This document shows, in pieces, positions 4,206-58,700 of a DNA stretch of 64,000 bases. Within the stretch, counting starts at the first letter, position 1; every line of letters begins with the position of its first letter. The notes beneath the pieces were generated by a model. The model was not told the DNA's origin. It worked only from the letters and a program-made list of their open reading frames with translations, and did not search any database. Made by a program: the position numbers and the translations under genes. Source of the stretch: Leucosporidium creatinivorum (lineage: Eukaryota; Basidiomycota; Microbotryomycetes; Leucosporidiales; Leucosporidiaceae); assembly GCA_001600635.1 (NCBI GenBank), contig BCKL01000019.1:62001-126000 (forward strand). The letters are read 5' to 3'.

Positions 4206-6104
4206 ATGCGCTCTCTCCTCGCCCTCACCGTCTTGACCGCCGCTCTCGGTGCCGTCGCCGCTCCTTCCAAAAGCAAGAGCAAGGTTTGCACCGTAGTATC
4301 CTCGCACTCGGCTGCCGACGACACCCCAGCGCTCCTCCAGGTGCTCAACGACACGAGTTGCCTCACGGACGCGACGATTCTGTTCAAGCAAGGAGCTACC
4401 TACAACATCTATCAGCCGGTCAAGTTCCCTGCTCTCAAGTGAGTAATCGCTGTACCTCCTAACTCACCTACGCAGCTAACCGTCGTTCTCCCTGATGCAG
4501 CAACGTCGTCGTTTCGATCCAAGGCAATATCAACCTCCCTTCCAACGTAACCTTGGTGCAGAGCATCGTCAGCAACTCGAAGATCTACTCTGGCTATTGT
4601 GCGTCGGCCCGCCCACGTCCCTCGACTTGAAAGCTGACAGCTCTTCGGCGCCGAGCAGGGTTTACCTTCAAGACGGGCTCGGGAATCACCATTGAGGGTA
4701 ATCCGAAAAACAAGAACTTTGGATGGATCGATTCCCACGGTCAGCAGGTGAAGCGGCTGTTCATTCGACGACACACAGCCTCCTTCGGGTGCTCGACGTC
4801 GTTTCGGCGATGAAGCTAACCTTCTTCTTGCCCCCGTCTCAGTGGTGGGATGCGAGTGAGTGGCCTAGTGGATCAGTATCACATAGAGGGTCCGCGCTGA
4901 CTCTACTGACCAACAGACAACCAGGTCAACCGCCCTCACCTCATGTCCATCGGCGCCTCGAACGTCGAGATTACGAACCTCAAGATCAAGAAGCCGGTCG
5001 CATGGGTCTTCAAGGCCGCTGGAAGCAACCTCAACTTCAACCACATCACCATCGACGCCAAGAGCGATAGCTCAGCCTTCCCCTTCAACGTGAGTTGGCC
5101 TCGAGCTCATCTCGGCGCCGAGGAAGCTGACCTTTGCTCCGTCTGCAGACCGATGGCTTCGATGTCGGAGGAGTGAACGTCACCCTCACCAATAACTATG
5201 TCGTCAACGGAGATGACTGCATCACCATGTACGTCTATCCTCAACCCCTTGCTCAACGGGCAAGATTTTGGCGCGCTTGGCAACGAGGCTCAAAGCCAGC
5301 TACATAAGCTTACTTACTTTTTTGTTGCCCTCTTGCAGCAACAACGGAGCAAAGAACGTCTACGCTGCCGACAACTACTGCGAAGGAGGTCACGGCGCCT
5401 CACTCGGCTCGTTCGGCTCGGGTGGCAGCGTCGCCTCGGCGAGCAACATCACCTTTACCCGCTTTGTCATGGTCGACTCGCTGTACGGCGCTCGCTTCAA
5501 GTCGTGGACCGGTGGGAATGGACTCGTCTCCGACGTTCACTACTCGGACTTCACGCTCCGAAACGTCAGCTTCCCCATCTTCATCACTCAGAACTACTAC
5601 GACCAGGGTGTCGGGAAACCCACCAACGCTGGAGCCACCAACACCAACATCTCCAACTTCTCGTACCGCAACTTTGCTGGTGAGCTCGCTGCTCGGCGCT
5701 CCTTCTCGCGTAGGCTGACCTGCTCTCCTTGCGCAGGCACAATCGACTCGCGCAAGCCCGGAGATGGATCATGCGTCACCAACCCCTGCTGGTACGCTGT
5801 AAACGGTACAGATGGGACTCAGGCCATCATTTTCGACTTTGCGAAGGGGACAGGTGAGTCGCCGCTCCGCTCCGCCTCCCTCGCTCTTCTCGCTTCACCT
5901 GTCTTGACGAGACCTCGCGCTGACCTTCACCAATACTTCATCCCCTTCTGATCCCCCTCAGCCACCAACATCGTCACCAGCAGCATCAACATCCGCCCCG
6001 ACGATGGGCGCAAAGCGACTGTCATCTGCGATCCCGAGGCGTTGCAGGAGACAGACAAGGAGGTCGGCTTTGTGTGTCACAACGGGCTGTATGTTCGTGC
6101 TTAG
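4206..6104 (+). CDS. Secreted GH28 glycosidase (polygalacturonase-like)
   Basis: This is a pectin-backbone hydrolase of glycoside hydrolase family 28, with a right-handed parallel beta-helix fold. The start at 4206 gives the signal peptide MRSLLALTVLTAALGAVAA. The four GH28 signature blocks are present in order: NTDGFDV (spliced), NGDDC, GGHGASLGS and RFKSWTG. The last replaces the usual RIK with RFK. Residues before it include WWDANNQVNRPHLM, encoded partly by a 13-nt exon at 4843-4855. Many N-glycosylation sequons (NVT, NIT, NVS, NIS) fit secretion. About 440 residues. The exact activity (exo- or endo-polygalacturonase, xylogalacturonan or rhamnogalacturonan) cannot be fixed from motifs. 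It pairs divergently with the pectinesterase. Confidence 0.92.
4843..4855 (+). other. 13-nt microexon of the GH28 gene
   Basis: The exon TGGTGGGATGCGA lies between introns 4748-4842 and 4856-4916. It supplies WWDA plus one base of the next Asn codon. Splicing gives GQQ-WWDANNQVNRPH, the conserved GH28 run, and both flanks have good GT/AG signals. Confidence 0.75.
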
Positions 6105-6305
6105 CTGGTGTCACTGAAAGCACGGATCGTAGCTCTTCTCGTCGTCTCTGCCGCCCAAAGTATCCAGCGCCGAGCACCCTTCTCTCGACTCGCGAGGGCT
6201 TCAGCTTGCTTCAGAAGGAGGAAGCATGAGAGGTGGATAACTTTACAGCAGTATCTATCGACTACTACACGACACAGTCTAATGCGCCTGACCTCGTTGT
6301 GCTCC

Positions 6306-8207
6306 TCAATCGAGCTCGACGCCCGAGTCGGAGGGAGGCTCGTCGGCCAGGACCTTCCTCGAGGTGCGGCCATATGCATCCTTGTAGAAGAGTACCTCGC
6401 CTTCGTCCTCGACGAACTGTGAGTGTGCGAGAAGTCAGCAAAGCGAGTTTGTCGGCGGAGGCTCGGGCGGCGAACCGCTGTGAGGGCCTCGGAGGGACTC
6501 ACTCGGCACACACGCAAGTTCCTCCACAATGAGAGGTAGACATTCTCGCTCGTTGAGATGTAGTCATCGCCGAGGAAGGCCTTGAGAGCGACGGTCGCTT
6601 CGCCGGCGTGGTCTGCAAGCAGCGAGAGGGAAGCGGGAAGTGAGGGCAACGGGGAGAGTCAGTTACATGCTACGGGAGGAAATGGTGAGTCAAGAGCAAG
6701 CATAGGTGACCTACAGTGAGGAATCTTGATCGAGACGTGGTGGCTGCACAAGGCGAGGTCGAAGTCAGCGAGAGTCGACAGCCAGTGACTGCGAGCGGAA
6801 TGAATCGGACCCACGCTACATGAGTCTCAGCGATCGAATGCATGAAGAAGATACCAACAAACCCGAGCACGCTGCGATCGATGGTGCACAGTGTACCCCG
6901 AGCAAACGACCATTCCCCCCCTCGGTAGTGAGGGAGCATTGGGTCGGTGTGCTGTTGCAGGAAACCAGTCAGCTCGGAGAGAGCTCACAGCAGAGAGTAA
7001 GCACTCACTTGAAGGTACGTGATGAGCACGAACCAGTGGTTCATGACGAGGTAGGGCACGAGGTAGAATTTGGCAACGCTGGCGAGTCCGACGTTGTGGC
7101 CGAGGAGGGTGAGGAGGCCGACCATGGTGAGGAGTCCGAGGTTGGAAACATGGATGAGGGTACGTTGACGAGGCTCGAAGAGGGCCGAGTCGGGAATGAA
7201 GTCTGCGGACGAGAAGAGCGCCGAGGCGAGGCGAGAGGTTAGCGGCAGCCTAGGAAAAGGCAATGAGAGGCAGCTCACGGTTGGTACCAGTGGGATACCC
7301 GGGCTGACTTGTGACGTTGGTGAGGAGATAGGCGGGCCATCCGAGTAGCTGCGAGCGAGAGAAGTCAGCGATGAACTCGGCTCGTCGTCAGCTAGCTCAA
7401 GAGCAAGAGCCCACCTGTTGCAGCACGACCTTGCCGAGCCTGTAGATCGGCGCATCCTCCAATAGCTCGTCCAACCACTCGCCATCCACCATGGCCTTCT
7501 TGGACGTTGTCTTGCCCTCGGCGCCGAGCTTCTGGCTGCGAGTTGCGGGAACGAAGACCTCCTCCCTGGTCATGTGGCCCGTCGCGGCGTGATGCCTAGC
7601 ATGCGAGATCTTCCACGAGTAGTAGGGTACGAGGCAGAAGGAGTGCAGCACGAGGCCGACGTGGTTGTTGAGGCGCTTGGATGTCGAGAAAGCACCGTGG
7701 CCGCCTGCGGGACTGATTGAGTGAGTCGGGCGAGCAAAGAAGAGCTTTGTCGCCTCGCGCGGAGCACTCACACTCGTGGCCTGGAGGAGAACGGACAAGG
7801 TCAGCGCCTGCGAAGGGTGCGAAGAGCAGCTGGACGGCCGACTCACCGAGAATGAGCATGCCAAGTAATACCACACCTTGTACCATCCAATAGACTCCCC
7901 AGCATCCCCACCTGAGCACCTCACTCTCCATCGCCAAGCCCCGGGCGCCGAACGCTGCATCAATCCGACTCGCCGCGAGCGCCAGCCCAACAGTCATCGC
8001 TACATCCCTAGCGACGTAGTACAGCGAGTGAGCAGCAGATCGCTCGAAGCAGTGTGCCGGTACTGCTCCCAGCAGGTCCTTCATCGTGTAGCGACTCGGC
8101 TGGAACGGAGGATAGCTGCCATGGCTCAGCTCTTGCTGCTTATCTTGCGAGCTGGGCTGCTTGTCGATAGGTGCTAGACGCTGGCGAAGCGTTGCTGTGG
8201 CTTCCAT
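6306..8207 (-). CDS. FAD2-type fatty acid desaturase, copy 1
   Basis: This is an ER membrane desaturase that introduces a Delta-12 (or Delta-12/15) double bond into C18 acyl chains. The three diiron histidine boxes are HECGH (completed across a 9-nt exon, 7772-7780), HARHH and HVAHH, followed by SIKIPHYHAGEAT, typical of FAD2. The N-terminus [17 protein letters not shown] and the [19 protein letters not shown] block match the neighbouring copy. The C-terminus is SDSGVELD, with stop at 6306-6308. About 430 residues and numerous short introns. Differences from copy 2 around the first two boxes (HECGHG versus HECGHQ; HARHH versus HGKHH) suggest divergence in regioselectivity or substrate. The two copies are tandem, in the same direction, 600 bp apart. 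Confidence 0.9.
7772..7780 (-). other. 9-nt microexon carrying His box 1 (FAD2 copy 1)
   Basis: The exon GCCACGAGT (minus strand) follows a CTCCAG acceptor and precedes a GTGAGT donor. Joined to G before and GCGGCCAC after, it gives GHECGH. Without it the desaturase would lose its first iron-binding histidine box. Confidence 0.8.
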
Positions 8208-8807
8208 AGTCGACGGCGTGCTGAGAGCAAAGACGAGGGAGATGGGATGAAGCAAAGCTCTTTTCGATCCCTTGCCCTCGAGACTGAGCCGAGCCTCGCT
8301 CGCCTGGCGCTGGCGTGTCAATTCCGGCGGCAGCGGAACACTCGGAGGGAGTGGAGCGGTGTGGAACGGTCGACTACAGGACGTGGTTGAATCTCCGAGA
8401 GAGAAGAGTGCAGAAGAGTAACGCTCAGCGCCGAGGTGGTTCGCCCAGGTGTAGTTCGGCTCTCGTCGGCTTTCGCTGCTCTGCTCGTAGAGAATGGTGA
8501 ACCGAAACCTCTTGCAAAACTGCACACACATCGTCTATATCCCGACGTGGGTGCCGAGGCGTGATAAGGGAGAACTGACGAGAGGGAAGAGGGGGGAGGG
8601 GAAGTGGAAGCGCCCGAAAGGCTACAAGACTAGACTGATAGACAAGACATCATCCCCCGCTCCTCCTCATCCTCTCGAACAGACTCCTCCTCTCACACCT
8701 CACACCCAACACGACGAGATAATCGCCGAACGACAAAACCGAGAAGAACAAAGAAACCCGCCAACGAAATCCAATGAAGGACTCGCTGAGACGTGCTCTT
8801 GAGCTTC
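8208..8807. other. Intergenic between tandem desaturases
   Basis: This 600-bp stretch holds the promoter of copy 1 and the 3' region of copy 2. It is pyrimidine-rich on the plus strand around 8640-8700. I see no other gene. Confidence 0.5.
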
Positions 8808-11036
8808 TTAGTTGACGTCGACACCAGAGTCCGAAGGGAGCGACTCGTAGACGACCTGGCGGGAGGTGCGGCCGTACTGGTCCTTGTAGAAGACGACCTC
8901 GCCCTCGTCCTCGACGAACTGTTCGTCAGAAGCGGCGAGGTCAGCGATCAGGTGCAGAGAGGAGGAAGGAGGGAGAAGAAACATACCCTGCACTGACGGT
9001 AAGACTTCCAGAGCGAAACCCACATGTTCTCGTCGGTCGAGACGTAGTGCTCGCCGAGGAACTCCTTGAGAGCCTCAGTGGCCTCCCATGCGTGGTCTGT
9101 AGTAGACGAGTCAGCTACAGTACAGTGTAGTATCTGCTCTGTCAGGCTCACGGTGAGGGATCTTGGAGCAAATGTGGTGGCTGTTGGGCGAGGAAAAGGT
9201 CAGTTTGAGCTCGGCGAGCATCTCAGCGCTCGAAGACGGAAGAGAAGCTTCTTAGGAATCAGGAGGTCACTATTACTTACGCAACATGGGTCTCTGTGGA
9301 CGAAGGACAGTTCAAGGGTTAGCCTAAGCTCTTACAGCCGCCCGCCAGCCATCTCCGGAGTACCCAGCCATCGCCGAGCAGGTTTGTACATAAGGCAGAG
9401 GGTACAGAAAGCGAACTAGGACTCACCCGTGATGCCGTGCATCAAATATGGGCCAACAAACCACATGAGGTTCCTATGCAGAGGAAGCAGGAGAGTCAGC
9501 GGTGTGAACGGAGTCGAAACGGGGTCCGTAGGGCCGCCAAGAGCCCTCCGGGCGGGTCTGAAGCCCTCAAGACACTGAGACTCACCTGTCGATGGTGCAA
9601 AGAGCTCCACGCTGGAAGTTCCACTCGCCAGCGCGGTAGTGAGGAAGCATGGGGTCGGTGTGCTGCAGGAAACAGGCGTTAGCGCTTCGTTCGGCGAAGT
9701 CGGTCCGTTCCGCGCTCCGTTCGGCCAACTCCACCCCTCGATGACATGCTACAACTCACCTGAAGGTAGGTGATGAACACGAGCCAGTGGTTGACCATGA
9801 GGTAGGGGACGAAGTAGTACTTTCCGACGGCCGAGATGCCTCCGGCGTAGTGTCCGAACGCGGTGAGGAGGGCGCCCATGGTAAGGAGAGCGGCATCCGA
9901 GAGGAGGATCTGCTGGCGGTGACGAGCGTCGAAGATGAGCGAGTTGGGGTCGAAGTCTAAGGGAGCAGCGTGGGGATCAGCGCGGGATTCGGCGACCTTG
10001 AGAAACGACTCAGAAACGCACGGTTGGTGCCCTTGGGGTACCAGGCTTGGCCAGAAGCGTTGTTAAAGAGGTAAGCGGGCCATCCGAAGAGCTGTAGGGC
10101 GTTGACGAGGTCAGTAAATAAGCTCCGATGCCCAACGGAGCCTTGCCCAAGTCGCGGCTCACCTGCTGGACGAAGAGACCGTAAAGGCGGTAGAGGGGCG
10201 AGTCGTCGAGAAGCTCCTCGAGCTCCATGCCGCCGACCATGACCTTGCGACCAGTGCCCTTGCCTTCGTTGGCGCACTTCTCGGAGCGGGTAGCGGGGAC
10301 GAAGACCTCATCGCGCGACATGTGTCCGGTCGCGGCGTGGTGCTTGCCGTGCGAGATACGCCACGAATGGTAGGGGACGAGGACAAAGGAGTGGAGGATC
10401 AAGCCCATCGTGTTGTTGATGGTCTTGTTGGCGGAGAACGATTGGTGGCCGCCTGCGAGAGGGGTTCGGCGTTAGTTCCGTCGAGCGAAACGAGATCCTG
10501 TAGCCATTCAGACGTACATTCGTGAGCTGCAGTAGATCAGAGGCAATAGTATCGTCAGCGCCAAGTCCTTTTTTTGCGACCTTTCGCGCAAGATAGGGCG
10601 CCGGCTCCACGTCGAACTTGTGGCGAAAAGACTCACCAATGATCCAGATGCCGGTGTAGACGAATCCCGCCCAGATCCAGTAGGTGCTCCAGGCAGCCCA
10701 CTTGGCAGCGAGTCCAGTGTATCCATCGAGGACGGTGCCCTTGAATCCGAGGGCAGGCTCGATGAAGGAGGCGGCGTACATGAGCGCCGCGACGAGGGCG
10801 AAGTCGCGGACGACGTAAGATCCCGAGATGAGGGCGGAACGCTCAAAGCAATGGGCAGGGATAGCGCCGAGGATCTCCTTCATCGTGTAGTTTGGTGGGG
10901 TGAACGAAGGGTAGTCGCCGTAGGTGAGGAGGTCGTCGCCAGAGTCGGAGGAGGCCTCCGAAGCGGGAGCAGCGGCGCTCTTGGCCTTGACGCTGTCGAC
11001 GGGGACACGTTGGCGGAGGGTAGAAGCGGCGGACAT
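8808..11036 (-). CDS. FAD2-type fatty acid desaturase, copy 2
   Basis: A second membrane desaturase, tandem to copy 1 and probably the canonical Delta-12 oleate desaturase of the pair. The start is at 11036 ([15 protein letters not shown]). The block [20 protein letters not shown] precedes the membrane segments. Histidine boxes are HECGHQ (spliced through a 9-nt exon at 10518-10526, giving AHECGHQSF), HGKHH and HVAHH followed by ICSKIPHH. The C-terminus is SDSGVDVN, with TAA at 8808-8810. About 450 residues. Exon positions largely match copy 1, so the two arose by genomic (not RNA-based) duplication. A decayed third copy lies inverted at about 12.5-13.25 kb and is closest to this one. Confidence 0.92.
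10518..10526 (-). other. 9-nt microexon carrying His box 1 (FAD2 copy 2)
   Basis: The exon CTCACGAAT (minus strand) lies between a CTGCAG acceptor and a GTACGT donor. With the flanking G and GCGGCCACCAA it spells AHECGHQ. Position and length match the 9-nt exon of copy 1. Confidence 0.8.
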
Positions 11037-12504
11037 GATGGCCGGAGAGGTGGGAGGAAGAAGAAGGGGGAGAAGAGGGCGGAAAGTGTCGGTTTCGAGG
11101 GCGACGAGTCGAGGAGGGAAAACGTCTAGATGCGAGTAATCTAGATAAGTAGATCCCTTTGCTGGTAACCTTCTAAGGACGATTTCCTGTAGGGGAGTGG
11201 GGAGAGAGAAGGGGCGAGGAGGAAGAGGGAGGAGGAGGAAGGCGTAGGAAAGCAAGAGGTTGTTGGGGGGAACTTCTCCGCCAAGTCTCGAAGTCGAGGC
11301 CTCAGCGCAAGGTCGCCTTTTGTGATCGAGGGGATGAAGTCTGCAAGGCTCCTCATTCGCCACTGGATGAGTGGTGTAGTACAGTAGGTCTGTAGCATGA
11401 CAAAAGTGTTCAAAAAGCTACAGAAAAGTCGAGAAGTCTTCCGGCCCATTTCGGCGCTCTTCGCTGCTCCCCTTTGCTCTTCGCGTGCTCATCAGCGAAA
11501 CAGGCATCTTGTCGTATGTCCTCGGGTGTACTCGGCTCGTACAAGCACAGCTACATGGGTACAGGACGTGCTCCTGCTCTCCGAGCCTTCCACGTCGCAG
11601 CTTCGAGCTTAGGCCGGCGGTCGAGCGGTCGCCGGCCCTTCGCGCTTGACGGCAAGGCCACTAGACTATGGAACGCGTCTCGCCAGCTCATCAGCATGCA
11701 AAGGACTTGAAAGGGAGGCAAAAGACAAGTCGGCGAGACGGGAGCACCCTCACAACGACCTCGACGTCGAGGCCCCTCTCTCACCTCTCGGCGCTCGCTC
11801 CGAAACGCTCTGCCGGGCTTTGCAGCAGAACTGAGCAGTCGACGAAGACCCCCAACCTACTGATGCGTATTGGGCTGTCAACTCGAGCTCTCCAGCGCAC
11901 TTTTGTTGGACTACCTACAGAATTGCCCGTTTCGGTCTTCTCATCTCTCGACGCTCCTGCACTCGGACAGAGGCTTGGCGTGGGGCTGAAGTAATCGAGG
12001 ATGGCTTTTGAGTCTGATATCTACAGACTCTGAGCTTCAGAGGTGTATCAAAGGCGTCCAGAAGCAAACCACCAGCTACGAACCCTTCTCACTGCCATCG
12101 GGCAGCTCAAGTTCCGCTTCCCTCCAGATGTGATGTAAGAGCTTCTTTGAGCGGAGGTGACGATTTAAGAAGCGTATCGGACAAGCGGGCGAAGCTTAGC
12201 GGTGCTGCAAGCTGGTAGGGAGACCGCTTACGCCAGCGCCGAGCTCATCGGGCATCGCTGAACATCGCTTCTCGCCAACATGGCGTAGTACACGTCTCTT
12301 GCCATGGTCCGCGAGATGCTTCATAGTGACCTGGGAGTACTGCTGTGCTCGTTAAGGACAGCTCAGCCTTGTCAAGGCTCGGCAGACTGGAAGCACTTGG
12401 CCCGCCGAGTCGGTGAGCCTGTTTGGTCTCCTCCAGATCGCTTCCTACTTCCCTCGGGGTCCTTCTCGCACAGACGTAGCGTGGTATATGTTTGAGCAAG
12501 GTTT
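11037..12504. other. Long intergenic stretch upstream of desaturase copy 2
   Basis: About 1.47 kb without a convincing gene. The first 100-300 bp should hold the promoter and 5' UTR of copy 2. A GC-rich perfect inverted repeat (GGCCGGCG, 10-nt loop, CGCCGGCC) lies at 11612-11637. The rest looks like decayed sequence leading into the FAD2 pseudogene. Confidence 0.5.
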
Positions 12505-15776: not shown

Positions 15777-16016
15777 GATGTGCTCTGGTGGATGGGAAGG
15801 CTTTGTCTCGCCTAAGAGCTCGGCGGAGGAGTTGCGAAGCCCGGCGATACTCGAGAGGCGTTTCGAGGGGTACTGGAGATCTCTAAGCTATATCACTACA
15901 GACTCCCTCCGCTCGGCACCTTTCGCGGAACATTCACTCGGAGCTCGAATTCTGCCGTTCATGCTCGCGCGTCTTTCTCTCTCCGCCGCTCCGCTCGTCT
16001 CGACTTCAACCTCGCC

Positions 16017-18485: not shown

Positions 18486-20071
18486 CTACACCACCTCAGG
18501 GGATCGACTCTTCTCGAGCGATCTAGCAGACCTCAGCGAATGCTTCGTCGGCACGCGCGGGATCACTTGAACGACTTTGGCGATGGGCAACGCTCCCACG
18601 ACGAGGCCATTGCTGTCCGCTACTTCTCCGTCGATATCGCCGACTACACTCTGGTAGTCGAGGGACTTGAGGAGGATGTCTGTGGTGAGAGGGATGGTCA
18701 GCAACGGCGAAGGCAGTCGACTCGACCAGCTCGGCGAACTCACAAAGCAGAGTAGCGATGAGTGCACCGGCCATCTGTCCCACGTAGTAAAGCCAGGTGT
18801 AGGAAGCAAATGAAGCGTTGACGACGTCGGGACCAAGAGTGCGAGCGGGGTTGATGCCTGTTCAAGGAGAGTCAGCGGAAGATCGGCGCTTGGCGATGAG
18901 GTATCGACGACTTGCCAGCTCCCGTCCAGCCGACCGAGGCAATGTGGCCGATGAAGAGAGCGAGTCCAATGCTGGTTAATGTAAAGAGGTCAAAGAAGGC
19001 CTGTCCAAGGCGAAGAGACTGTACTAACCCGACCGGCGCGAGGAAGGTGCTGTTCGCCGAGTAGAAACGTCAGCGCCGTTCGAGCTTGAGAGGAGCATGC
19101 TACTCACGTCTTCGACTTCTCAGCGGCGAGCATAAGCACGGTGAACACTTTATAGGAACGATCAGCTACAGTATCTGCAAAGTAGAGCAGATCGAAGCTC
19201 ACCGAGTAACGCCGTCGCGAACATTTCGATTCCGAACGCCTGGCCGTAGCTGATCCCGTCGGCGATTCGGTTGCCTACAGAGAAGTCTCCGAGTGTGAAA
19301 CCCTTGGCCACGCCAGCAGCAGCAATGCCGCCGAGCAGCTGAGCGATGATGACTCCGAAGGCGCGCCGAAAGTCGCAGGCTCCGATCATCCACAGGGAGA
19401 ACGTGACAGCGGGATTGAACGCCGAGCCCGTGATCCTAAACATGAGAAAGGTCAGCTGAGAGGAGGAGAAGAGCGGGAGGAGAGAGGCGAACCGGAAGAA
19501 GACCCAAGCGACCTGCGAGACGAGGATGAGCGATCGCCGAGATGGGAAGGCAAGGCATACTCACGACAAGTAGAGACATGCCGAACGAGAGGGAGATGAA
19601 GAGGATAGTCTGTAGATGGTCGAGAGTCAGCTCAGCTCACGGCCCGTTGGTGTTCAGGCTCACCTCGTTGTCATTGGCAGCGACGGGCGAAGGCTCGCCG
19701 ACCGAGCGGTTGTAGATCGCTGACTGAGCTCCGAGGAAGCTACAAAGGAGGAAGAGGAAAGTCCCCGCGAACTCTCCGAGTCCGCAGAGGATGTCGTGAC
19801 GGATCTTGTTCATCCCTTCACGCTTTTGAGCGCCGGCGCTGCCCTTCCCGAGTCGGAGATCGCCTCCCTGCTCCTCGTACTCATGGTGTGCAAAGGCGCC
19901 CTGGTCTGGCTTAAGCGGTTGCTGAGAGAAACGAGAGCATTCCATAGAGGTTTTTGGGTGGACGTGGTGTCCTGCGAAGGCGCGGCCATCGCTGACTGCG
20001 AAGGAGTTCGGTGGAGGCTGACCCTCGACCCGGGTGCTGGTGGTGTACATGGAAGCTGGCGGGCTCGTCAT
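18486..20071 (-). CDS. Aquaporin (MIP family water channel)
   Basis: A six-helix channel with both pore signatures intact: FNPAVTFSL in loop B and INPARTLGP in loop E. The Arg after the second NPA and the short loops favour an orthodox water channel (Aqy1-like) over an aquaglyceroporin. The N-terminus is long, hydrophilic and cytosolic (about 110 residues from MTSPPASMYTTSTRVEG), ahead of the first helix LGEFAGTFLFLLCSFLGAQS. A short tail ends RSLEKSRSPEVV. I chose 20071 for the start; an in-frame ATG 60 bases upstream is possible. Introns are many; one exon (19029-19049) is only 21 nt. It is divergent from the epoxide hydrolase over 600 bp. Confidence 0.88.
19029..19049 (-). other. 21-nt microexon of the aquaporin gene
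   Basis: The exon encodes TFLAPVG, with shared codons at each edge (AC/C before, GG/C after). Joining it gives KSKTTFLAPVGIGLALFIGH, a continuous helix-5 segment. Donor GTTAGT and acceptor GAACAG flank it on the minus strand. Confidence 0.7.
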
Positions 20072-35375: not shown

Positions 35376-37845
35376 ATGTCCACCGAATCATCAGGACACT
35401 CTGCTACCAAGGATAGCAAGCTGGGCGAACCAGTCGGCGGCAAGGATGCTACACAGTCGGGGGTCGTCGAGGCAACTCAGCCGCCGGCAGACCGTGAGGA
35501 GCAGGTGAAGCGAGGCTTGCAGGACCGCCACGTCCTCATGAGTGAGTCCAGTACAGCAAGCAACTCTGCTGCAACTTTGCAGCCTTGTAGAGCAGCGCAC
35601 TGACCCTTCCCGTCTCCCTTTCCTCCCGTTCATCTCCGTCCGCTGCTCCCTCGCTACCTTGCCCTCTCGCCTTCGTCCTCCCACCACCAGTCGCTGTCGG
35701 AGGCATCATAGGATCAGGCTTCTTCGTAGGGACCGGAGGAGCCCTCAACACGGGTGGACCCGTCGGTCTTCTGCTCGGCTACTCGGCGATGGGCGCCGTC
35801 ACCTACTCAGTTATCACGGCCGTTGGAGAGATTGCGGCCCTCTTCCCTCTCTCGGGAGGATTCGTCTATCACGCCAGTCGGTTCTTTGATCCCGCCCTCG
35901 GCTTCGCGGTCGGTTGGAACTACTGGGGCGGCCTCGCCGTTACTGTTCCCGCCGAACTCGTCGCAGGCGCTCTCGTCATCAGCTACTGGGATACAACCAC
36001 AAACGTCGCCGTCTGGATCTCCCTCTTCCTCTTCGCCATCACCGCCGTCAACTTTTGCCCTGTACGAGTGTATGGAGAGCAGGTGAGTCGACTTGAGAGA
36101 TCGCCGAAGATGGGCTTGCGCTGACTTCCTATCTTCCACAGGAGTTCTGGTGAGCTACTGGGACACTTACATGTCACCAGCAAGCCCAGCAAACTGACCC
36201 CTCCCCTCTCAGGATGGCCTCCCTCAAGGTCCTCTCCGTGCTCGGACTCCTCCTCGCCGGTCTCGTTATCGACCTCGGCGGCACGCCTACCCACGACCGT
36301 CTCGGCTTCCGTTACTGGTTGGACCCTGGACCCTTTGCGCAACTCGATGATAGTACGTTCTTCCTCTGCTGCCTTTGACCGCCCTTCGCCGGCGCGCCTG
36401 CTCGACTGCCCTTCGCCGAAGCCCCTCAGTGATCCTTTCTCGCCGAGCCGTTCGCTGACCGAGTCGCTTTCTCATCAGTCCCCGGCGCAACTGGTCGCTT
36501 CTTAGCGTTCTGGTCGACCTTTCTCAACTCGGCGTTCTCGTTCGGAGGAGTCGAGGTCATCGCCCTTTCCGCCGCCGAGTCGAACAACCCTCACAAGACT
36601 GTTCCACGTGCCATCAAGACCGTCTTCGTGCGTATCTTCGCTGCTTAGCGTACTCTACCAGAGCACCGGACCACTGGGATTTTGCTGACGCTGACCTCGG
36701 CTCTGGATTTTCCTGACGCTGACCTCGGCTCGCTCTCTCGCAGTGGCGAATCCTCGTGTTCTACGTCGGCGGCACTTTCGTCATCGGACTCACCGTCCCT
36801 TACACCAACCCGAACCTGCTCTCGGAGGAGGAGAGCGCTGTAGCCTCTCCCTTCGTCATCGCTCTCGAGCTTGCCGGCGTCAAATCCCTCGCCTCAGTAA
36901 TCAACGCTGTCATTTTGCTCTCGACGTACAGCGCCAGCACGTCGTACCTTTACGCTGCTTCTAGGACTATCTACGGACTCGCCGTCGACCGACAGGCGCC
37001 TCAGATCCTCGCCCGCGTCGACAAGCGAGGAGTGCCCTACGTCGCCGTGGCCTTCACCGCCCTCTTCGGATGCCTCGCCTACATGAACCTATCCAACAGC
37101 GGTGCGACCGTCTTCAACTGTAAGCCAAATCTGGCCGACTCTCCCTCGGCCGACAGCTGACCTCCTTCCGCTCACAGGGCTTTACACCCTTTCCGCCATT
37201 TCCTGTATCTTGGCGTGGATCGCCATCCTCATAACATATCTCCGCTTCCGCGCTGGCTACCTGCGCCAAGGCATCGATCTCTCGCTCTTCCCTTGTGAGT
37301 TTCGGCGTTCGCTCGCTGCCGGTCAGCTCGCTGATCTCGTTGCCTCTCAGACCGTGCACCTCTCCAACCTTACCTATCATACTTCGGTCTCACCATGCTT
37401 CTCCTTATCACCTTCTTTAACGGTATGTTGCGCTCCTTCTCGCCGATGCTCTCCCCTCGCTGCTTGGCGTCTCGCCTTCACGCACTCGCTGACCTCTGCC
37501 GCCACTTCCTTCTCTCAGGGTTCGAGCTTTTCCTCGCTGGCAACCAACCCTTCGACGCCTCCAGCTTTGTCGCTTCCTACATCCTCATCCCCCTCTACAT
37601 CGGCCTCTACTTCTTCTGGAAATTCTGGAAGAAGACCAGCATCATCTCGTGCGTCATTCTTCAAATATCTCACACACCTCGCTCTCGAGCTGACCGTCTC
37701 TCCCTACCTTCACAGTCTCGACCAAATGGACTTCTCGGGCATGCGTGAGCGTTGGCAGAGCTCGGACGTCGAGCGGAGCATTGACGATGTCAAGAAGCCG
37801 TTGGGCAAGAGGATGCAGGGCTGGGTCAAAGCTGCGTGGGAATAA
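35376..37845 (+). CDS. Amino-acid permease (APC superfamily, YAT type)
   Basis: A plasma-membrane amino-acid/H+ symporter with 12 expected helices. The start at 35376 gives a hydrophilic N-terminus, then LQDRHVLMIAVGGIIGSGFF, the unwound helix-1 signature, GGPVGLLLGYSAMGAVTYSV, and GEIAALFPLSGGFVYHASRF with VGWNYW. The EFW segment of YGEQEFWMASLKV is supplied by an 8-nt exon at 36142-36149. SAFSFGGVEVIALSAAESNN and STYSASTSYLYAASRTIYGLA follow as in yeast general and specific permeases. The C-terminus is hydrophilic with Trp. About 540 residues. Substrate specificity cannot be read from the sequence. Divergent from the amine oxidase. Confidence 0.92.
36142..36149 (+). other. 8-nt microexon of the amino-acid permease gene
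   Basis: The exon GAGTTCTG lies between acceptor TTCCACAG (ending 36141) and donor GTGAGC (from 36150). It encodes Glu-Phe and two bases of Trp; the next exon starts G-ATG-GCC. The product YGEQEFWMASLKV matches the invariant (E)FW motif of the family. Confidence 0.8.
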
Positions 37846-49671: not shown

Positions 49672-49774
49672 TTTAAGAGAGAGTAGCAACGAGCGGTAAG
49701 AGCCAAAGAAGCCTTGGACGCGCCTCTCTCACTCCTCCCAAATTGCCTGCCCGCTCGACTTGGGACTCGCTAGG
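49672..49774. promoter_or_regulatory. Very short bidirectional promoter, IWR1 / PPWD1
   Basis: Only 103 bp separate the two start codons, so the 5' UTRs and core promoters must be shared or overlapping. No TATA box seen. Confidence 0.55.
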
Positions 49775-52700
49775 ATGGCAGAACAACAGGCTACAGAATC
49801 GACTTTGCTGGGCAAACGAGCACGAGAGATTGACGCTCTAGACTTCAAAGGTCAGTCAGCTCTCACTACAGCCTTACAGCCTAACAACCCGCTAACCCCC
49901 CGTCTCGCCCCTCGCCTCGCTACAGCTCATCAAAACGGCTCCTCTGCTACCGCTACCACCGAAGACACCGAGGAGCAAGAGCAAGGCCCACCACCACTCG
50001 CTGCAGGAGCAATAGACGACGACGACTCAGACGATGATGATGATGATTTTGGACCCATGCCCCTCCCCGCAGAGGAGAGTGCTGTCATGACCAAGAAGAG
50101 GAAGAGTATGTTTTCCTTCCTTCTCGCTTGCTCTTCTTGAACCTCCCGCTGGCAAGGTGCAGAAGAGGCCACTTGGCGCGAGCGGAGGGGACGGGACGGG
50201 AGGGGAGGGGAGGGGGAGCGCTTGCTGCTCCTCGGCCGCTCGGTCGCCCGCCCAACATCGACCTCGGTCGCTAGCAGAAGAAGCAGGTATCGTATGAGTC
50301 CTCCATCCATTACTGACACCCTCTTCCTCCTCGCCCTCACCGCGACCGCGACCAAACAGCCCTCCCACACGCCCAACTGTACCTCGACCACCTCCCCTCG
50401 GCAGATCGGTACTACAAGTCCTTCATGCATCGGGATACCGTCAATTGCGTCAAGGTCACCAAGTGAGTTTTTTTGCTTGGGCTGCGCTGGCATTGGGGAG
50501 CTGTGGAGGCGAGGGGAGGCGAGGGGAGGCGAGGGGAGGCGAGGGGAGGCGAGGGGAGGCGAGGGGAGAGCGGAGTGGACGGCCGAGGAGGGATGGGATG
50601 GGATGGGATGGGATGGGATGAAACACTACAGTGCTACAGTACTACTCATCGCAGTGCTAGTCCGTTTCACGACTCGTGCCAACCCGCTAACCTCTCCCTC
50701 ACCCTCCCCCGCACCCAAAAGGACCAACTTCCTCCTCACCACCTCTCTCGACGGGCACCTCAAATTCTGGAAAAAGCAGGCGGGAGGAGGGATCGAATTC
50801 GTCAAGCATTACCGCACGCATCTCTCTCCGATTGTAGGGTTGGCGGTGGATGACGAGGGCAAGAACGCGGCGAGTATTGGGGAGGACGTGGGAGGCAAGT
50901 GTGTGCAGGGCGGGGAGGTGAGGGGTAGTGTCAAGGTGTTTGAGGTGGAGAATTTCGGTGAGTGCTTTAGGCTTTGGGCTTCGGGGAGGGGGGAGAGGGG
51001 AGGGGAGGAAGAGAGGGGAGAGCGCAGCGCCGAGCTGACTAGCGACGGCCGATGGGGAAACAGACATGATCAATATTATCAAGTTGCCCTACGCTCCTCG
51101 AGTGTGCGCTTGGATCCATGGTAGAGGGGATGGGAGGGTGTTGCTCGCTGTGTGAGTGCTCGGTCAATCATTCTCGGGCGTTACCCTCGGCTCTGGCCTG
51201 AACACTCTCTCTCTCGGCTCGGCTGACTTGGCTCCTTTCCCTCTCCTCCCCTCCTCATCCGCCTCCCTCCTCCTCGACATCATCAACCGACCCCGACCGC
51301 CGACATCAGCTCCGATTTCGCCTCCCCCTTGATCAGGATCTACGACGGCCGAGGCGACGGCACGCCGCTGCATACGATTGAGGGGTTGCATCGGAGTAGC
51401 GTGCATTTGATGGAGGTGGGTTCTGTTTTAGGGGTCTCTTCCCCCTCCCCCCTTCCTTCTGGCGAGGAGCGAAGAGCGCCGAGCTCACCCCTTCCCTTTC
51501 CTCTCTCTCCCTCCTCCCCTACTCGGCGATGCCACATGCCACATGAACAGTACAACCCGCACTACCACGCCGTCATTTCCATCGACATCTCGGGGATGAT
51601 GGAGTATTGGACCCCCGACGAGCCGTTCGAGAAGCCCGGGAATGTCGAGTGGGATAATAAGGGCCAGACGGGGTTGTATGAGTTTAAGAAGGTGCGTTTT
51701 TTTGAGTTTTGAGTTCGCTCGGGCGTGGTGGGTTGTTTTTGGTGGGGGTTGAGGAAGGAGGGAGGGAGGGAGGGAGGGGAGGAGGAGGGAGGGAGGAAAG
51801 CAGCGCCGCCGCGCCGAGAACTGACGCTCGACGCGACGCTACGAACCCAACCCAAAACAGACGAAATCCACCCCCATCTCCCTCACCCTCTCTCCCACCG
51901 GCACATCCTTTGCGATCCTCTCCCTCCCTCACCTACGCCTCACCGTCTTCTCCTTCGCCACGGGCCGCCTTGTACGAGCGTACGACGAATCCCTAGTCGC
52001 TACTCAAGAGATGCAGCAAGCGGGTACGCTCCCGACTGGTGTCCATTTGGATTCGATGGAGTTTGGGAGGAGGTTGGCCGGCGAGAAGGAGTTGGAGAGA
52101 CTGGCGTTGGAGGAGGTGGTGGGGGGTAGGCCGGGTGTTGGGGTGGGAAAGCCGGCGTGGGATGAAGGGGGCAATTTCGTGATTTATCCGACGTTGTTGG
52201 GGATTAAAGGTGAGTTTCGAGCGGGGCGGGGCGGGCGAGCGAGGGCTTGAGGAGAGGAGGGCGCGCGCTGACCTGACCCTTGCCCTCTCTCTCTCTCCCT
52301 TCTCCTCGCGCCGCCTCGACTTCGCCCACTTCGCCGCTCTCGCCCCCACTCCACTCACACTACCGATCCTTCCTCCTCCTCCCACTCTCGCTCCCTTCGC
52401 GCGCGCGCACCCAACAGTCGTCAACACGGTCACCAACACGGTCGCCCGGATGCTCGGCAAGGACGAGACGGTCCGGTTCCTCGATTTGAGTCTTTTCCAG
52501 GGATTGCCAATCAAGAAGGGGATCAAGACTATTGTGCGTGTTTTTTGAGTTTGTTGCTGCTTCGCTCTCATCGAGGAGGAGGGAGCGGGACCGGAGGAGG
52601 AGGAGGAGGAAGACGAAGGCCGAAGATGAAAGGCTGACCTCTCCTTCTCGCACCCCACCCACCACTCCCACTCCCTCGCGCTCCTCGACATGACAGGCCA

Positions 52701-53834
52701 TGGCCACGTCGGATAACCCCCTCCTCGCCGACAAGGACGAGAGGGACCCCACCCTCTTCTGTACAGCGTACAAGCGCCCGCGGTTCTACTTGTTTACGAG
52801 GGAGCATCCAGAGTACGTTCCTCTTCCCTCTTGCTCTGTCGCTCCTTCTCTCCGACAACCCCTCACCGCCACGCCCAACCGCCGAGACTGACCCCTCTTC
52901 CCCACCTCCTTCCTCCCCTCACCCAACAGCGAGAAAGCGCACGACCGCGACGTCTTCAACGAGAAGCCCACTCGAGACGAGATGACCATCGCTGCTCCCT
53001 CGTCTGCTGCCCAGGGTCCATTGGGCAGGAAGGCCGTGATTCATACGACCAAGGGGGATATCGCCTTTGATTTGTTCCCCGACCAGACGCCAAAGACGGT
53101 GGAGAACTTTGTGGGACTGAGCAGGAAGCATTATTACGATGAGGTCATCTTTCATAGGGTTATTCCCAAGTTTGTGAGTTGATTGCATCGCCTCGCCCTC
53201 GCTTGCTTGCTTGCTTGCTTGCTCGCTCGCTCCTCCTCCCGCCCGCCGAGTTCGCTGACGCCTCGTTCTCCCTCCTCCTCCCCCCACGACGACGACGACG
53301 TCAAACAGATGCTCCAAACCGGCGACCCTCTCGGCGACGGCACGGGCGGCGAATCCCTCTGGGGCAGCTCCTTCGAGGACGAGATCCACCCCTCCCTCAA
53401 GCATGATCGGCCTTACACGCTTTCCATGGCCAATGCCGGACCAAAGACGAATGGGAGCCAGTTCTTCATTACGACGGTCCCCGCGCCGTGGCTGGATGGG
53501 AAACATACGTGAGTTACTTTCCTCTTGACGGCGGCGAGACGCTCGGCGACGCTGTCAGGGTGAGGGTGAGGAATGGGGAAAGCTGACCTTTGCTCTCTTT
53601 ATACACCTCTCCACCCCTCCCTTCCTATCTACGCTCCACCCTCCCCTCCTCCCCTCTTCCCCCCTGGCCTCCCCCTCGCTCTTCACCCTCGCCCCGTTCT
53701 CCCACACTCCCTCCAGCGTCTTCGGCCGCGCAACCTCGGGCTTCGACGTCATCCACGAGATTGAGAACGTGCGCACCGATAAGGGGGATAGGCCGTACGA
53801 TGAGATTCGGATCGTTAGTGTGGATGTTGAGTAG
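49775..53834 (+). CDS. PPWD1: PPWD1-type WD40 / cyclophilin peptidyl-prolyl isomerase
   Basis: A spliceosome-associated protein with N-terminal WD40 repeats and a C-terminal cyclophilin domain. After an acidic segment ([18 protein letters not shown]), the family block [20 protein letters not shown] starts the propeller: [67 protein letters not shown] and [17 protein letters not shown]. The cyclophilin domain ([20 protein letters not shown] onward) keeps catalytic [10 protein letters not shown] (Arg), NGSQFFIT (Gln, Phe) and WLDGKHTVFG (Trp, His), so isomerase activity is expected. It stops at 53832-53834. About 720 residues and many introns, one with tandem repeats at 50.5 kb. Confidence 0.93.
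50504..50568 (+). repeat. 10-bp minisatellite in a PPWD1 intron
   Basis: About six and a half perfect tandem copies of GAGGGGAGGC. It lies inside the intron after the [12 protein letters not shown] exon. Confidence 0.9.
50590..50620 (+). repeat. GGGAT pentanucleotide repeat in the same intron
   Basis: About six perfect copies of GGGAT, 20 bp after the minisatellite. The two arrays make the intron purine-rich on the sense strand. Confidence 0.9.
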
Positions 53835-54083
53835 CGGGCGAGGGGGTCGGCGCGAGGAGGGGAAGGGGAGGGAGGGAGTGGCCCATGGGCCAGCAAAATG
53901 AGAAACGCAGGATTACAGTACTGTCGAGCTTCGTGGTCAGGGAAGCGAGCGAGCGAGATGAGATGAGAAGCGAGAGGAGAAGGGAGATGGGCCAAGCAGC
54001 GCCGAGTCTCGGCGGCGAGTGAAGAAGGCGAGTTGACGAGCTGATGGGGCAGCTATCGACTCACAAGAGGTGGCTCAGGTTGA
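53835..54083. other. 3' flank of PPWD1
   Basis: No gene seen; purine-rich just after the stop codon. Confidence 0.4.
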
Positions 54084-54407
54084 TGGTGGTCTCTGTGTCA
54101 GCCTTACACCGTCGCTGAGGAGCAGGACATACCCTCTGGTGCAGAGCGCTTCTCGCTCGGCACGCTTCTCTCGCACCGATTCGGCGGCTCTGAAGACCTC
54201 AAGTCGGCGCTCACGGCGCTGCAGAAGCTGTGGATGTCCGAGAAGGAGATAAGCAAGTCAATCAAGTGGGTCAGCCCACCCCTTCAGCCAAATGTCATCT
54301 TCTCAAGCTCGGCAGCGGTCGGCTTCAAGTTCGAGTTGGCTCATTCGGCGACTTTCAACTACTCGGCACTTCTTGCCAGAAGGCGCGGTGACAGAGGCGC
54401 GATGTGA
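54084..54407 (+). pseudogene. Possible coding relic of unknown origin
   Basis: An open frame of 107 codons without a start codon near its beginning. It looks protein-like: QPYTVAEEQDIPSGAERFSL and GTLLSHRFGGSEDLKSALTA, then LQKLWMSEKEISKSIK, suggesting an amphipathic helix. A CAG just before CCTTACACC could be an old splice acceptor. There is no upstream partner exon, promoter or downstream exon that I can see. I do not recognise the family. It may be a gene fragment left by a rearrangement, or chance. Confidence 0.25.
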
Positions 54408-55774
54408 AGTGCACTCGGCGTTAAACGGCCACCCAGGTCTCGGCAACGGTCGTAAGCGAGCCAGCATCGGAACATCGAAGGGCCAGACCTTCGCCGAGCG
54501 GCTAACTCAAGGCCGAAGGGGCAAGGTTTCGGCACCCGAGTACCGAAGTGGATGAGCGAGACTGTGCAGCAGTACAGTCTGCAGCTGAACCACTCATACA
54601 GACTCCGCAAGACAGGCAGCAGTGCTGAAACTGACTCTCCCTCGGCGATCTTTTCGGAACGACTTCCCTCTCGGTCCTGGCTGCTCGCTATCGAAGGCTC
54701 ATAGAATCGAACGCGGTCGTTGGCCGTTTCTTGCTGTTCTGCAGCCTTCTTGTGCGGGAAGACGGGCTCTCCCCTTGCTGCTGTACTTCAACATTCCGAA
54801 CGGGTGAGGAGCATCGGCGGTTGCTTCTCCCTTCGGCGAAGCTTCAAAGGTGGTTGTAGACCGGCTGTAGAGGGTTTCCCACGACGTGCTCTTTGAAGAT
54901 TAAGAGTCGCGCAGCGGCTGCACCCGAGCCGAGAGATAGCGCACACGTCCGGAGAGCGAACGGCGGCGATGTCGATGGCGCCAACGCCGAGAAGTGAGGA
55001 CGTCGTTCAGCTGGAAGCTCGTGTACTGTAGTACAGTAGAGCTGCTGTCCATGAGAAAATGATCGTCGTGGCTCGGGATCGAGTACAGAAGTTCCCGAGG
55101 GAGCGGCTGTTCCCTCGTGAGATGATCGAGCAGCCAGCTCTCGCGCGCCGTTTCGAAAAGGACGCGAGCCGCTTGCTCCTGGCTCTCTCGCTCTTACATA
55201 CCACTCGCCTGCCTCAATTCAACTCGACTACAGCGCTGCTTCTCAGCGCTACTGCTACCTCGCTACACACTCAGCCCACGCCCCAGCATTCGGAGGTAGC
55301 TTCAAGCAAGAGCTCGTCGCTGCTGCTCGAACGCAGCCAGGAAAGCGCCTGCAGCGTCTGCTCAGCTCTTGGACGCCAATCGCCGATTTTAGGTGAGCTT
55401 CTCTGCTACATATAGATCACTACAGGACAGCGCGGCTATGTAGGCTTGTAGTGGGGCGGAGAACCGGTGAACCCGCGAGCCTGGAGCCCTCGCTTGATCC
55501 GGCTCGACGGCTCTGGGGGATGCGGGTCGGGTGCAAGTGGGCTCCAAACCAAGTGCGTTGCAAGGTCGTGGTCGCTAACGCTCGTTCCACCCCTCCCTCC
55601 CCTTGCTACGCTACAGCTCGCCTTTCGCTCGCCATCTGCGCTTGCCTGGCCGGTTGCTCTCGACCTTTCTCTCGGCTCGACCAAAGCTTTCGGACTCCAG
55701 CGCAGAACGATTCCGCGCCGGTCGCAGCAGTCTCCGTAGAGCTGTAGAGCACCACTAGGACTACTCGGACCAAC
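54408..55774. other. Long intergenic stretch before zinc-cluster gene
   Basis: About 1.37 kb with no supported gene. Open frames on both strands here are composition-driven in GC-rich DNA. The last few hundred bases should hold the promoter of the downstream regulator. A palindromic word, TACTGTAGTACAGTA, lies near 55024-55038. Confidence 0.45.
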
Positions 55775-58700
55775 ATGAGCTCCCACTCGAGCGACCAGTC
55801 GCAAGGTCACGTCCCTCTCCTATCCTCGCAACCGCTCGTCAACTCGAGCCCTTACGGCCAACCACCACCGCATCCTTATTATCACCAGCAGCAGCAGCAT
55901 CAACCGTACCCTTCTACCTCCTCCTCACGACCCCTGCAACAACCCCTGCAGTCTCATGGCTTCCCCGTTGCAACACATTCGCCTGCTGCCCCCGCGGGAG
56001 CTTCGCTTCCCTCGAGCGCACTCGTCGGAGCTGCTATTCTCGCTGGGCAAAAGTCTAGGAGCGTCATGGCGTGTGTGCTGTGCAGGAAGCAGAAGGTGGG
56101 CATACAGTTCCGCCGTCTCGAGACTCCCTCGACGCGACGCTGACCCACTCCGTCCTTGCTGCAGATGAAGTGCGAAGGGTGCGTTCGCCCTTGCAATAGA
56201 CTTTCGCTACTTGCGATGCTGATCCTTTGGCTATTTGCAGACCCGACAAGGCTCCGTGCAAGCGGTGCAGGTGAGAGCTCGGCCGCTCTTTCCCGCGACG
56301 AATATCGCCGACTGACCCTCTCTCTCGTCTCGCAGGACCGCCGGCGTCGAGTGCACCTTTGAAGCGCCACCAGCTGCTGCGCCACGAGCTCGAGGAGGAG
56401 GAGCGTCCGAAGCCTACGTCGAAGCGTGAGTTTCCTACTATCTCGGGCCTACCTCGGCCGATCGCCTTCGCCTTTGCGAGACGACGAAGGATCACCATCG
56501 TGCTCACCTTATCCTCATTCGGACATGCAGACGATTCTCTCACGTCGAGGATCGCATCGCCAACTTGGAGAACGCTCCACCTCCCTCAGCGATCGCCCTC
56601 TCACCTTCGGCGCCCTCCTCCTCGTCCCTCGTGGCTCGCAACGGCGCCCTCGTTACCGACCATGAGCGACGAATCGCAGCGCTCGAAGCACAGGTCTACG
56701 CTCTGCACCTCTCCGCCGCCTCGCAACCCCCTCCACCGCCAGCCCATCATCTCCAACCTCCGCCGAACCCCTACTTTTCCGCGCAGCCGCAATACGCTAC
56801 GCAGACCTTCTCGCACTACTCGGGGCACTCGACATCGGCCTCACCACCACTCAGCAAACCTCAATTTGACGCGGCGAGCGGGCCGTGCTCGTTTGCCAAC
56901 GGCGAGGCTTTTCGGCAGCAATGGCCGAGCGAGGGGACTCCCGCGTACGAGCACCGCGACAAGCGACATAAGCCGGACCTACCCATGACGGGGGAGCGAG
57001 ACTTTATCGCTCGAGGTGTGGTGACCGAGGCGGAGGCGACTTTGTGTTTCGAGTCGTGAGTTCCCTTGAGCCTTCCTCGCTCCACTCCCGCTCCGCCTCT
57101 CGTCGTCTGACACTTACACGAAGCCAACCGCTTTCCCCTCCTCCTTCCCCACCCCCCTCGCTCGCCCACCTAGTTACTTCCACACGTTCCCCCAACCCTC
57201 CGGCCCCTGCTCCCCTCTCGAAGCACCTCAACCACCACTCCTCTCCACCTCATCCTCCTTCACCGGCTCAACATCTTCCTCCAGCACCACCACCACCGCC
57301 TCCCGGCCCATCCGCCTCCCCTTCGCCGAAACGCGCGCCCGCTCCCCCCTCCTCCTGGCGACAATAATTTCCATCGGCGCGCGCTCCCTCTCGCGCTTCG
57401 ACACTTACAAAGCCACGCTGGGCGAGGCGATTCGGCTGTGCCATGGAACCTTCTTGAGCGAGCCGGGGGAGGAGCCGACGAGTTTGGATTTGAAGGGGAT
57501 GATGCTCTTGTCGTTGTACAATGGCATGCCCGATTTGATGAGCCATGGGATTACGTTGACTTATCGGTTTGGGGCGCCGACGGCGTTGTTGGAGTTTGAT
57601 AAGTTGAGTGAGGAGGACAAGAGGGGGAAGAAGGGGAGGATTCTGGTGAGGAGGGGCAGGACGTTCTTGGTCTCGTTCTTGTGGACTTCCTTGTGAGTTG
57701 GGCCTGTCTCGTCGACGAGCTTCTCCCTCTCGCGCCGAGATGCTGACCTTTGCTGCTTCCTCGCAGCTACTCGTACTGCCGCGGTCTGCACGGCTTCTAC
57801 CATGTACCCACGGACGTCATTCGCAAGCAGCTCGACATCCTTGAGTCGTCCAAGTTTACCGAGCCGCCTTCAGATCGGCGCATTCGAGTGTTCGTCTTTC
57901 GTCTCGCCGTCTCGATCGCTTTCGCTGACCCTCTTCGCTCACTTTCATAGAAACGTGGAGGAGTGCTTGATCCTTCGCGACGTCTTTGACAAGCTCGGAC
58001 CCGGCATGCGGATGGAGTCGCCGAGCTACGAAGAGCTGTTCGAGATTGTCGAGGCGGGCAACACTCAGCTGACGCTGTGGGATAAGAAATGGGTGGACAT
58101 GATGGGTGAGTCGTCTCTCTTTATCGTCTACGTCGCTCGCTGATATCTTGTCGCCCTGCAGAGTCTGTAACGTGCGCTTCTCGCCTTCTCCTCCCCGTCG
58201 GCGCTCTCACTGACCCCGCTCGCTCCACAGTCAATGGGGAGACTCTCGCGAGCTCAAGACGGCCGTACCACTCCACCACGGTCGCATGTGCCTGCTCATG
58301 TACATCTTCCGCGACATGGTCGTCGACGACCGAGCGAGGACCTACCCCAAGATGCGCGAGTTTGCTCGCATGGGCGCCGAGTCGGCTCTGGTCATCCTCC
58401 GCTGGGGTGTCGAGAGTCGTATTTGGCTACCGCACTCGATGGTGGCGCAGTACTTGCAGTGAGCTCTCGTTTGTTCACTCAGCGCGAGACCTCGGAGCTG
58501 ACCCACCTCTCCCCTTCTCGCAGTCACGTCAAGTGAGCTTGCGATCGTTCCGAACTCTGCTCAAGCTTATCGCTGACCTGTCACTACAACAGCATCCCCA
58601 ACGCCATCACCCTCCTCTACATCGTCACCCGCCTCTTCCCCTCGGACGCCTGCTTCCCCCTCATCCGCCGACTCCTCCACCGCCTCCTCAAGCAATGCGA

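Follow-up and report, generated by a model that had tools for sequence, protein, structure and literature searches.

Predicted microexons of 8 to 21 nucleotides at conserved motifs in five gene families of Leucosporidium creatinivorum

Introduction

Can exons of only 8 to 21 nucleotides (nt) that complete a conserved protein motif be genuine, and if so are they anything out of the ordinary? The question is raised by a stretch of the Leucosporidium creatinivorum genome (27.7 Mb; G+C 58-62%) which spans positions 62001-126000 of contig BCKL01000019.1 (hereafter C19) and which, at its full length of 64,000 nt, is called the window throughout. An earlier inspection of these letters, referred to here as the original prediction, had picked out six such microexons in five gene families. 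All six segments are indeed present, each preceded by AG and followed by GT, in a GH28 gene, in two copies of a FAD2 desaturase (FAD2A and FAD2B), in an aquaporin, in an amino-acid permease and in a zinc-cluster gene:

4843..4855, plus strand: 13-nt microexon of the GH28 gene (exons 4206-6104), TGGTGGGATGCGA, encoding WWDA; flanking introns of 95 and 61 nt
7772..7780, minus strand: 9-nt microexon of FAD2A (gene 6306-8207), GCCACGAGT, encoding GHE(C) of histidine box 1; flanking introns of 66 and 67 nt
10518..10526, minus strand: 9-nt microexon of FAD2B (gene 8808-11036), CTCACGAAT, encoding AHE(C) of histidine box 1; flanking introns of 110 and 65 nt
19029..19049, minus strand: 21-nt microexon of the aquaporin gene (18486-20071), encoding TTFLAPVG; flanking introns of 58 and 57 nt
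36142..36149, plus strand: 8-nt microexon of the permease gene (35376-37845), GAGTTCTG, encoding EF(W); flanking introns of 59 and 63 nt
56165..56178, plus strand: 14-nt microexon of the zinc-cluster gene (55775-58938), encoding MKCE(G) with the third cysteine of the Zn2Cys6 domain; flanking introns of 69 and 62 nt

Judged by homology, paralogy and chance tests, all of them made on genomic sequence, the six exons look real, with support of unequal strength. They are very probably constitutive coding microexons, left where only a few bases separate two introns in a fungal genome rich in introns.

Evidence that the microexons are genuine

Spliced models of the five families were obtained from an ab initio gene model and by hand building. 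In these models the reading frames continue through all six microexons, and a CTRAC motif lies within 60 nt upstream of each segment. The spliced products are GQQ-WWDA-NNQVNRP for GH28, LIL-GHEC-GHGAFS for FAD2A, WII-AHEC-GHQSFS for FAD2B, AAEKSKT-TFLAPVG-IGLALFIGH for the aquaporin, VYGEQ-EFW-MASLK for the permease and ACVLCRKQK-MKCEG-PDKAPCKRC (RKQKMKCEGPDK) for the zinc-cluster gene, and they match the Pfam families PF00295 (GH28), PF00487 (both FAD2 copies), PF00230 (aquaporin), PF00324 (permease) and PF00172 (zinc cluster).

Inclusion of an in-frame exon adds 14-21 bits to the Pfam score, and inclusion of a frame-shifting one adds more. The FA_desaturase match rises from 53.5 to 74.5 bits in FAD2A (+21) and from 69.3 to 90 bits in FAD2B (+20.7), whilst the aquaporin shows the smallest gain of the six (MIP, 138.9 bits with the 21-nt exon and 125.2 without, +13.7). 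The permease falls from 446.9 to 124.7 bits when its exon is left out, and both the GH28 match (166.3 bits) and the Zn_clus match (34.1 bits) disappear altogether. As skipping of the 8-nt, 13-nt (GH28) or 14-nt exon also shifts the frame, the loss of score in the permease, GH28 and zinc-cluster genes does not come from the missing residues alone. The gains in all six cases bear out the original prediction that each exon restores a conserved motif, but to call these motifs strictly conserved was too strong, as a score of 125 bits remains for the aquaporin when its exon is left out, the solved protein 4c2l has AWD in place of the WWD of GH28, and the EFW of the permease is replaced by EVVF in a paralogue (L048).

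The possibility that such segments arise by chance was assessed with 20,000 Markov-simulated introns per case, of the same combined length as the real ones, which were scanned for an AG-[3-30 nt]-GT segment fitting residue patterns written by the analyst. A single completion was found for the zinc cluster and none for FAD2A, FAD2B, GH28, the permease or the aquaporin.

Comparison with solved proteins gave alignments without gaps through the microexon for the aquaporin (2w1p), for the zinc-cluster gene (LEU3, 2er8) and for the permease, whose closest solved structure is the lysine-specific permease 9eyd (GESEFWFALIKV). The WWD of GH28 aligned to WWN of 8ikx and, with a three-residue gap just after the motif, to AWD of 4c2l, and the solved structure matched by FAD2B is only a distant desaturase, in which AHEC is aligned.

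The same microexon was found in a related gene for FAD2 and for the aquaporin; for the permease, GH28 and zinc-cluster genes the comparisons speak for the residues and not for the exon borders. Both FAD2 copies, putative delta-12 desaturases by family and by their likeness to the Rhodotorula toruloides Fad2 considered below, carry three histidine boxes (HECGH, HGKHH/HARHH and HVAHH) within PF00487. The two proteins agree at 253 of 435 aligned residues (58% identity), and every one of the eight FAD2A introns has a counterpart in FAD2B at the same codon and phase, including the pair that flanks the 9-nt exon, which is of phase 1 in both copies. FAD2A is modelled with nine exons and FAD2B, of 450 amino acids (aa), with 11; a single 137-nt exon of FAD2A corresponds to exons of 77, 47 and 13 nt in FAD2B, split by two extra introns. 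The last of these is itself a microexon:

9281..9293, minus strand: 13-nt microexon of FAD2B, encoding ETHVA of histidine box 3 (HVAHH); flanking introns of 133 and 100 nt

Without this exon, the skipping of which shifts the frame, FAD2B scores 67 bits as opposed to 90, and it was recovered also when the window was held out of training of the gene model. Boxes 1 and 3 of FAD2B thus both depend on microexons. In four other desaturase genes of the genome a HxxxH or HxxxxH box, picked by eye, is uninterrupted, and one scan of viral contigs gave no FAD2 relatives.

Paralogues of the aquaporin, permease and GH28 genes were fetched from the same genome, the loci being labelled L0xx. An aquaporin paralogue on C17 (L034) also has the 21-nt exon, differing at one base, and the same stretch runs without introns in a paralogue on C7 (L031). 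A second short exon belongs to the hand-made aquaporin model:

19493..19512, minus strand: 20-nt microexon of the aquaporin gene, encoding AWVFFR; uninterrupted in L031

The list of six therefore holds and is incomplete, since this exon and the FAD2B exon at 9281-9293 had been missed. The same microexon was absent from the GH28 and permease paralogues that were inspected: a GH28 paralogue on C10 has YWWDG within a longer open stretch, and among the six permease paralogues fetched, EFW or RFW continues into the next helix in L045, L047, L049 and L050, with the EVVF of L048 likewise uninterrupted. In the sixth (L046, C36:178150-178950) the upstream intron is absent and the other intron lies one base earlier in the same tryptophan codon (T|GG as against TG|G, by eye), an offset which suggests intron sliding or independent gain.

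Short exons in the surrounding contig

The ab initio model uses no homology, sets no minimum exon length, accepts GT donors only and was trained on the contig; an earlier version, in which introns were too cheap and genes were merged, was replaced by a refit with other costs. It was run over 264 kb of C19, made up of the window plus a total of 200 kb on its two sides, and predicted 81 genes with 575 introns (median 71 nt, branch consensus GCTGACC) and 494 internal exons with a mean of 165 nt. For FAD2A and the zinc-cluster gene, upstream ATGs in the same open frame took the place of the starts given by the model. Its version of the aquaporin, in which the 21-nt exon was joined to the wrong neighbours, was likewise dropped for one built by hand, which has a GC-AG intron and additional exons. 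Rfam and ARAGORN gave no matches over the window.

With the window included in training, the model recovered the borders of all six exons; with the window held out, five of the six were exact, and the aquaporin exon had the right acceptor and the wrong donor (19034-19049). The 20-nt aquaporin exon was missed either way. The support for each of the six is modest (3.2 to 6.5 nats), and an exon of 24 nt or less was inserted in 43 of 1590 random long introns. The expectation that ordinary gene finders would skip such exons is only partly right: with no lower limit on exon length even a simple model recovers most of them, though it errs around that of the aquaporin. That they can be misannotated was supported: once a microexon's acceptor was disabled in the model, the best parse skipped the exon, shifted a donor, took another acceptor or truncated the gene.

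A scan of the genome for exons below 25 nt that restore conserved motifs had been proposed; over the 264 kb the model predicted 33 internal exons of 24 nt or less, whether or not they carry a motif. This is fewer than the 67 expected among 494 if introns are placed at random with exponential exon lengths of the same mean (binomial p=8e-7, the model being taken at face value). The lengths of the 33 show no excess of multiples of three (remainders 0/1/2 in 13, 13 and 7 exons, p=0.29). Neuronal microexons have distinct splice signals in their flanking introns; here, 62 introns flanking microexons showed no significant difference from 513 other introns in donor, acceptor, branch site or length (p 0.16-0.92).

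Nor are the predicted microexons significantly concentrated in Pfam domains. In ten of the 14 genes outside the window that have microexons, 12 of 19 microexons fall in domains, which cover 46% of the residues (p=0.10), and a smaller test gave 12 of 16 in eight genes (p=0.07); neither value is significant. Domain spans were counted by hand, the genes left uncounted being a sugar transporter, an ABC transporter (best stretch only) and two that were unscanned. The notion that these exons are special, or lie preferentially on core motifs, was thus not upheld, as short exons are rarer than under random placement and the Pfam concentration is not significant; the original six drew attention through motifs that can be recognised.

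Unrelated genes nearby have equally small exons. A vanillyl-alcohol-oxidase-like gene (L020, C19 about 188943-192394) has six predicted exons of 4, 9, 11, 18, 19 and 21 nt, and a V-ATPase subunit d gene (L023, C19 about 224359-225966) is predicted to contain internal exons of 22 nt and 6 nt. Alignments of L020 to 1qlt and of L023 to 6vq6 are gapless at the microexon residues, and both models err elsewhere.

Probable constitutive inclusion and its alternatives

Fungi are thought to splice by intron definition. Each of the short introns that flank the six exons (57-110 nt) would, with its own donor, branch site and acceptor, be recognised as a unit and removed singly, and as the introns would be taken out one by one, the length of the exon between them should hardly matter. 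The motifs would be conserved because the proteins are, and introns may fall within them as anywhere else. Microexons could then arise through the gain or loss of an intron close to an existing one; the differences between FAD2B and FAD2A and among the aquaporin copies point to such gain or loss as the source, the two states in each case being compatible with change in either direction.

Several observations weigh against this account. For the permease, GH28 and zinc-cluster exons no second gene was seen to share the microexon. The introns of FAD2A and FAD2B align poorly, yet six of the eight pairs outscore all 50 shuffles, so that the introns have not fully diverged and their shared positions are less independent than the divergence of the exons would suggest. 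The intron upstream of the FAD2A microexon (7781-7846, minus strand, 66 nt) is a multiple of three in length and free of stops, so that a longer exon with the same GHE has an open frame (66 bits as against 74.5). The gene model is simple and was trained partly on the sequence that it scored, and some of the 33 predicted short exons are probably false. Among its other errors are gene starts cut short in FAD2A and in the zinc-cluster gene, the wrong join in the aquaporin, an apparent unspliced intron in the V-ATPase subunit d model (20 extra residues) and one doubtful exon of 1 nt. Finally, the deficit of short exons could in part consist of missed exons such as the 20-nt one of the aquaporin.

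The modest support that the ab initio model gives to each single exon, together with the readable FAD2A intron, would also suit the view that AG and GT flank some segments by chance, the motif being lost or supplied by another exon. Completions in the simulated introns were limited to 0-1 per 20,000, however, and the Pfam gains and the conservation of the FAD2 and aquaporin exons between paralogues also count against this view, which we regard as exceedingly improbable. Another proposal, published by Nelson and Syed (PMC12940212), would have microexons favoured where introns hit conserved motifs, and it is compatible with constitutive inclusion. All six exons and the 13-nt exon of FAD2B do fall inside Pfam matches, as do the 12 of 19 other microexons of the contig mentioned above (p=0.10); but six of those 12 come from one gene, the exons were originally picked by motif recognition and short exons are rarer than expected overall, and it seems unlikely, to a marked degree, that motifs direct the placement here.

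The original prediction also saw a possible switch in the FAD2 exons, and its anatomical premise stands, as skipping of the 9 nt is in frame and removes the HE of HECGH in both copies; beyond this anatomy nothing points to regulation. In a regulated cassette of this kind, skipping of the FAD2 9-nt exon, or of the 14-nt exon of the zinc-cluster gene, would yield an inactive protein, somewhat as in Xlr2 of Trichoderma virens, where a 20-nt microexon of the Zn2Cys6 domain is a glucose-dependent switch (PMC11121469). Both FAD2 copies have preserved the 9-nt exon despite their divergence, but such retention is equally expected of a constitutive exon that the protein needs. A second form of FAD2A gains partial support from its 66-nt intron, which would be readable if retained, at the score given above. 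Skipping of the 8-nt, 13-nt (GH28 and FAD2B) and 14-nt exons breaks the frame, lengths up to 24 nt are not enriched in multiples of three (13 of 33) and the splice signals are ordinary. Exon skipping accounts for 12 of 193 alternative-splicing events in Ustilago maydis, as opposed to 114 of intron retention (PMC2219887); it does occur in fungi, among them Cryptococcus, where 49% of the alternative events in coding sequence preserve the frame (PMC3990503). We therefore consider a regulated cassette very unlikely. A variant in which inclusion of the 9-nt exons of both FAD2 copies and of the 13-nt exon of FAD2B responds to, for example, temperature is highly improbable; desaturase output would there be adjusted by skipped or partly spliced messages, which either lack an iron-binding box or undergo a frame shift followed by decay.

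Comparison with known microexons

Microexons have precedents in fungi. The P450 genes of Phanerochaete chrysosporium have a shortest exon of 6 bp, and 41 genes, not confined to a single P450 family, have exons of 29 bp or less (PMC1184071). That species resembles the present one in being a basidiomycete with short introns, whereas the gene families differ and some of the exons there have cDNA support, the case here being made from genomic sequence. Closer in argument are a one-nucleotide exon of Fusarium CYP621A, supported by RNA reads, and an 8-nt exon in the I-helix motif of a P. chrysosporium P450 (PMC12940212). In these, as in the window, the microexon completes a conserved motif that annotation pipelines lose and comparative genomics is a main argument; the present cases lie in other proteins, and the Fusarium exon differs in its RNA support. 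Plants offer a further parallel in the 9-nt, phase-1 microexons of AP2 and GH32 genes, which encode the core of a motif and are often unannotated (PMC8831610). The FAD2 exons share the length, phase and position in the motif core, but the plant exons were traced through many species with RNA support, whilst FAD2 was compared between two tandem copies only.

The 20-nt exon of Xlr2 encodes PCRRCE and, like the 14-nt exon of the zinc-cluster gene, lies within the Zn2Cys6 domain of a transcription factor (PMC11121469). The latter differs in length and in encoding MKCEG, and regulation is not indicated as it is by the glucose dependence of Xlr2. Microexons of the switch type are usually a multiple of three in length, the Xlr2 exon itself being 20 nt (PMC11121469); in the present material this applies to three of the six (both FAD2 exons and that of the aquaporin), besides the 13 of 33 in the contig sample. 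The Fad2 of R. toruloides, for which four exons were established by rapid amplification of cDNA ends (RACE) and reverse transcription PCR (RT-PCR), has 451 aa and three histidine boxes (PMC7977280). FAD2B is thus much alike in length and boxes, but the 11 exons modelled for it, and the nine for FAD2A, differ from those four.

The literature consulted, which consisted mostly of titles and the first parts of abstracts, yielded no fungal FAD2, permease, aquaporin or GH28 gene with a reported microexon. Motif-carrying microexons as such are already published for fungi and plants, to which the present set adds new examples, and nothing points to a new biological mechanism. Their practical weight lies in annotation: correct gene models need these exons, as their omission abolishes the Pfam match of GH28 and of the zinc-cluster gene and truncates the permease, and genes whose microexons are skipped could be listed as broken or truncated. 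FAD2A and FAD2B and the aquaporin copies, in which the microexon is kept between diverged copies or fused in one of them, are clean cases that would be useful for testing annotation programs.

Other features of the zinc-cluster and aquaporin genes

Some further short exons and one intron with a GC donor were noted in two of the five families:

56241..56270, plus strand: 30-nt exon of the zinc-cluster gene, next after the 14-nt one, encoding (G)PDKAPCKRC(R) with cysteines four and five; aligned to LEU3 with a two-residue gap
58162..58171, plus strand: 10-nt exon of the zinc-cluster gene, from the ab initio model only
58524..58532, plus strand: 9-nt exon of the zinc-cluster gene, from the ab initio model only
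18858..18915, minus strand: GC-donor intron of the aquaporin gene (GCAAGT...CAG), just before the second NPA motif; unusable by a model limited to GT donors

An additional aquaporin stretch, nearly identical by eye to that of L031, lies on C7 (L032, C7:597248-600532) amid open frames resembling a major-facilitator transporter, an arrangement that would fit the insertion of a partial copy or a rearrangement of the genes.

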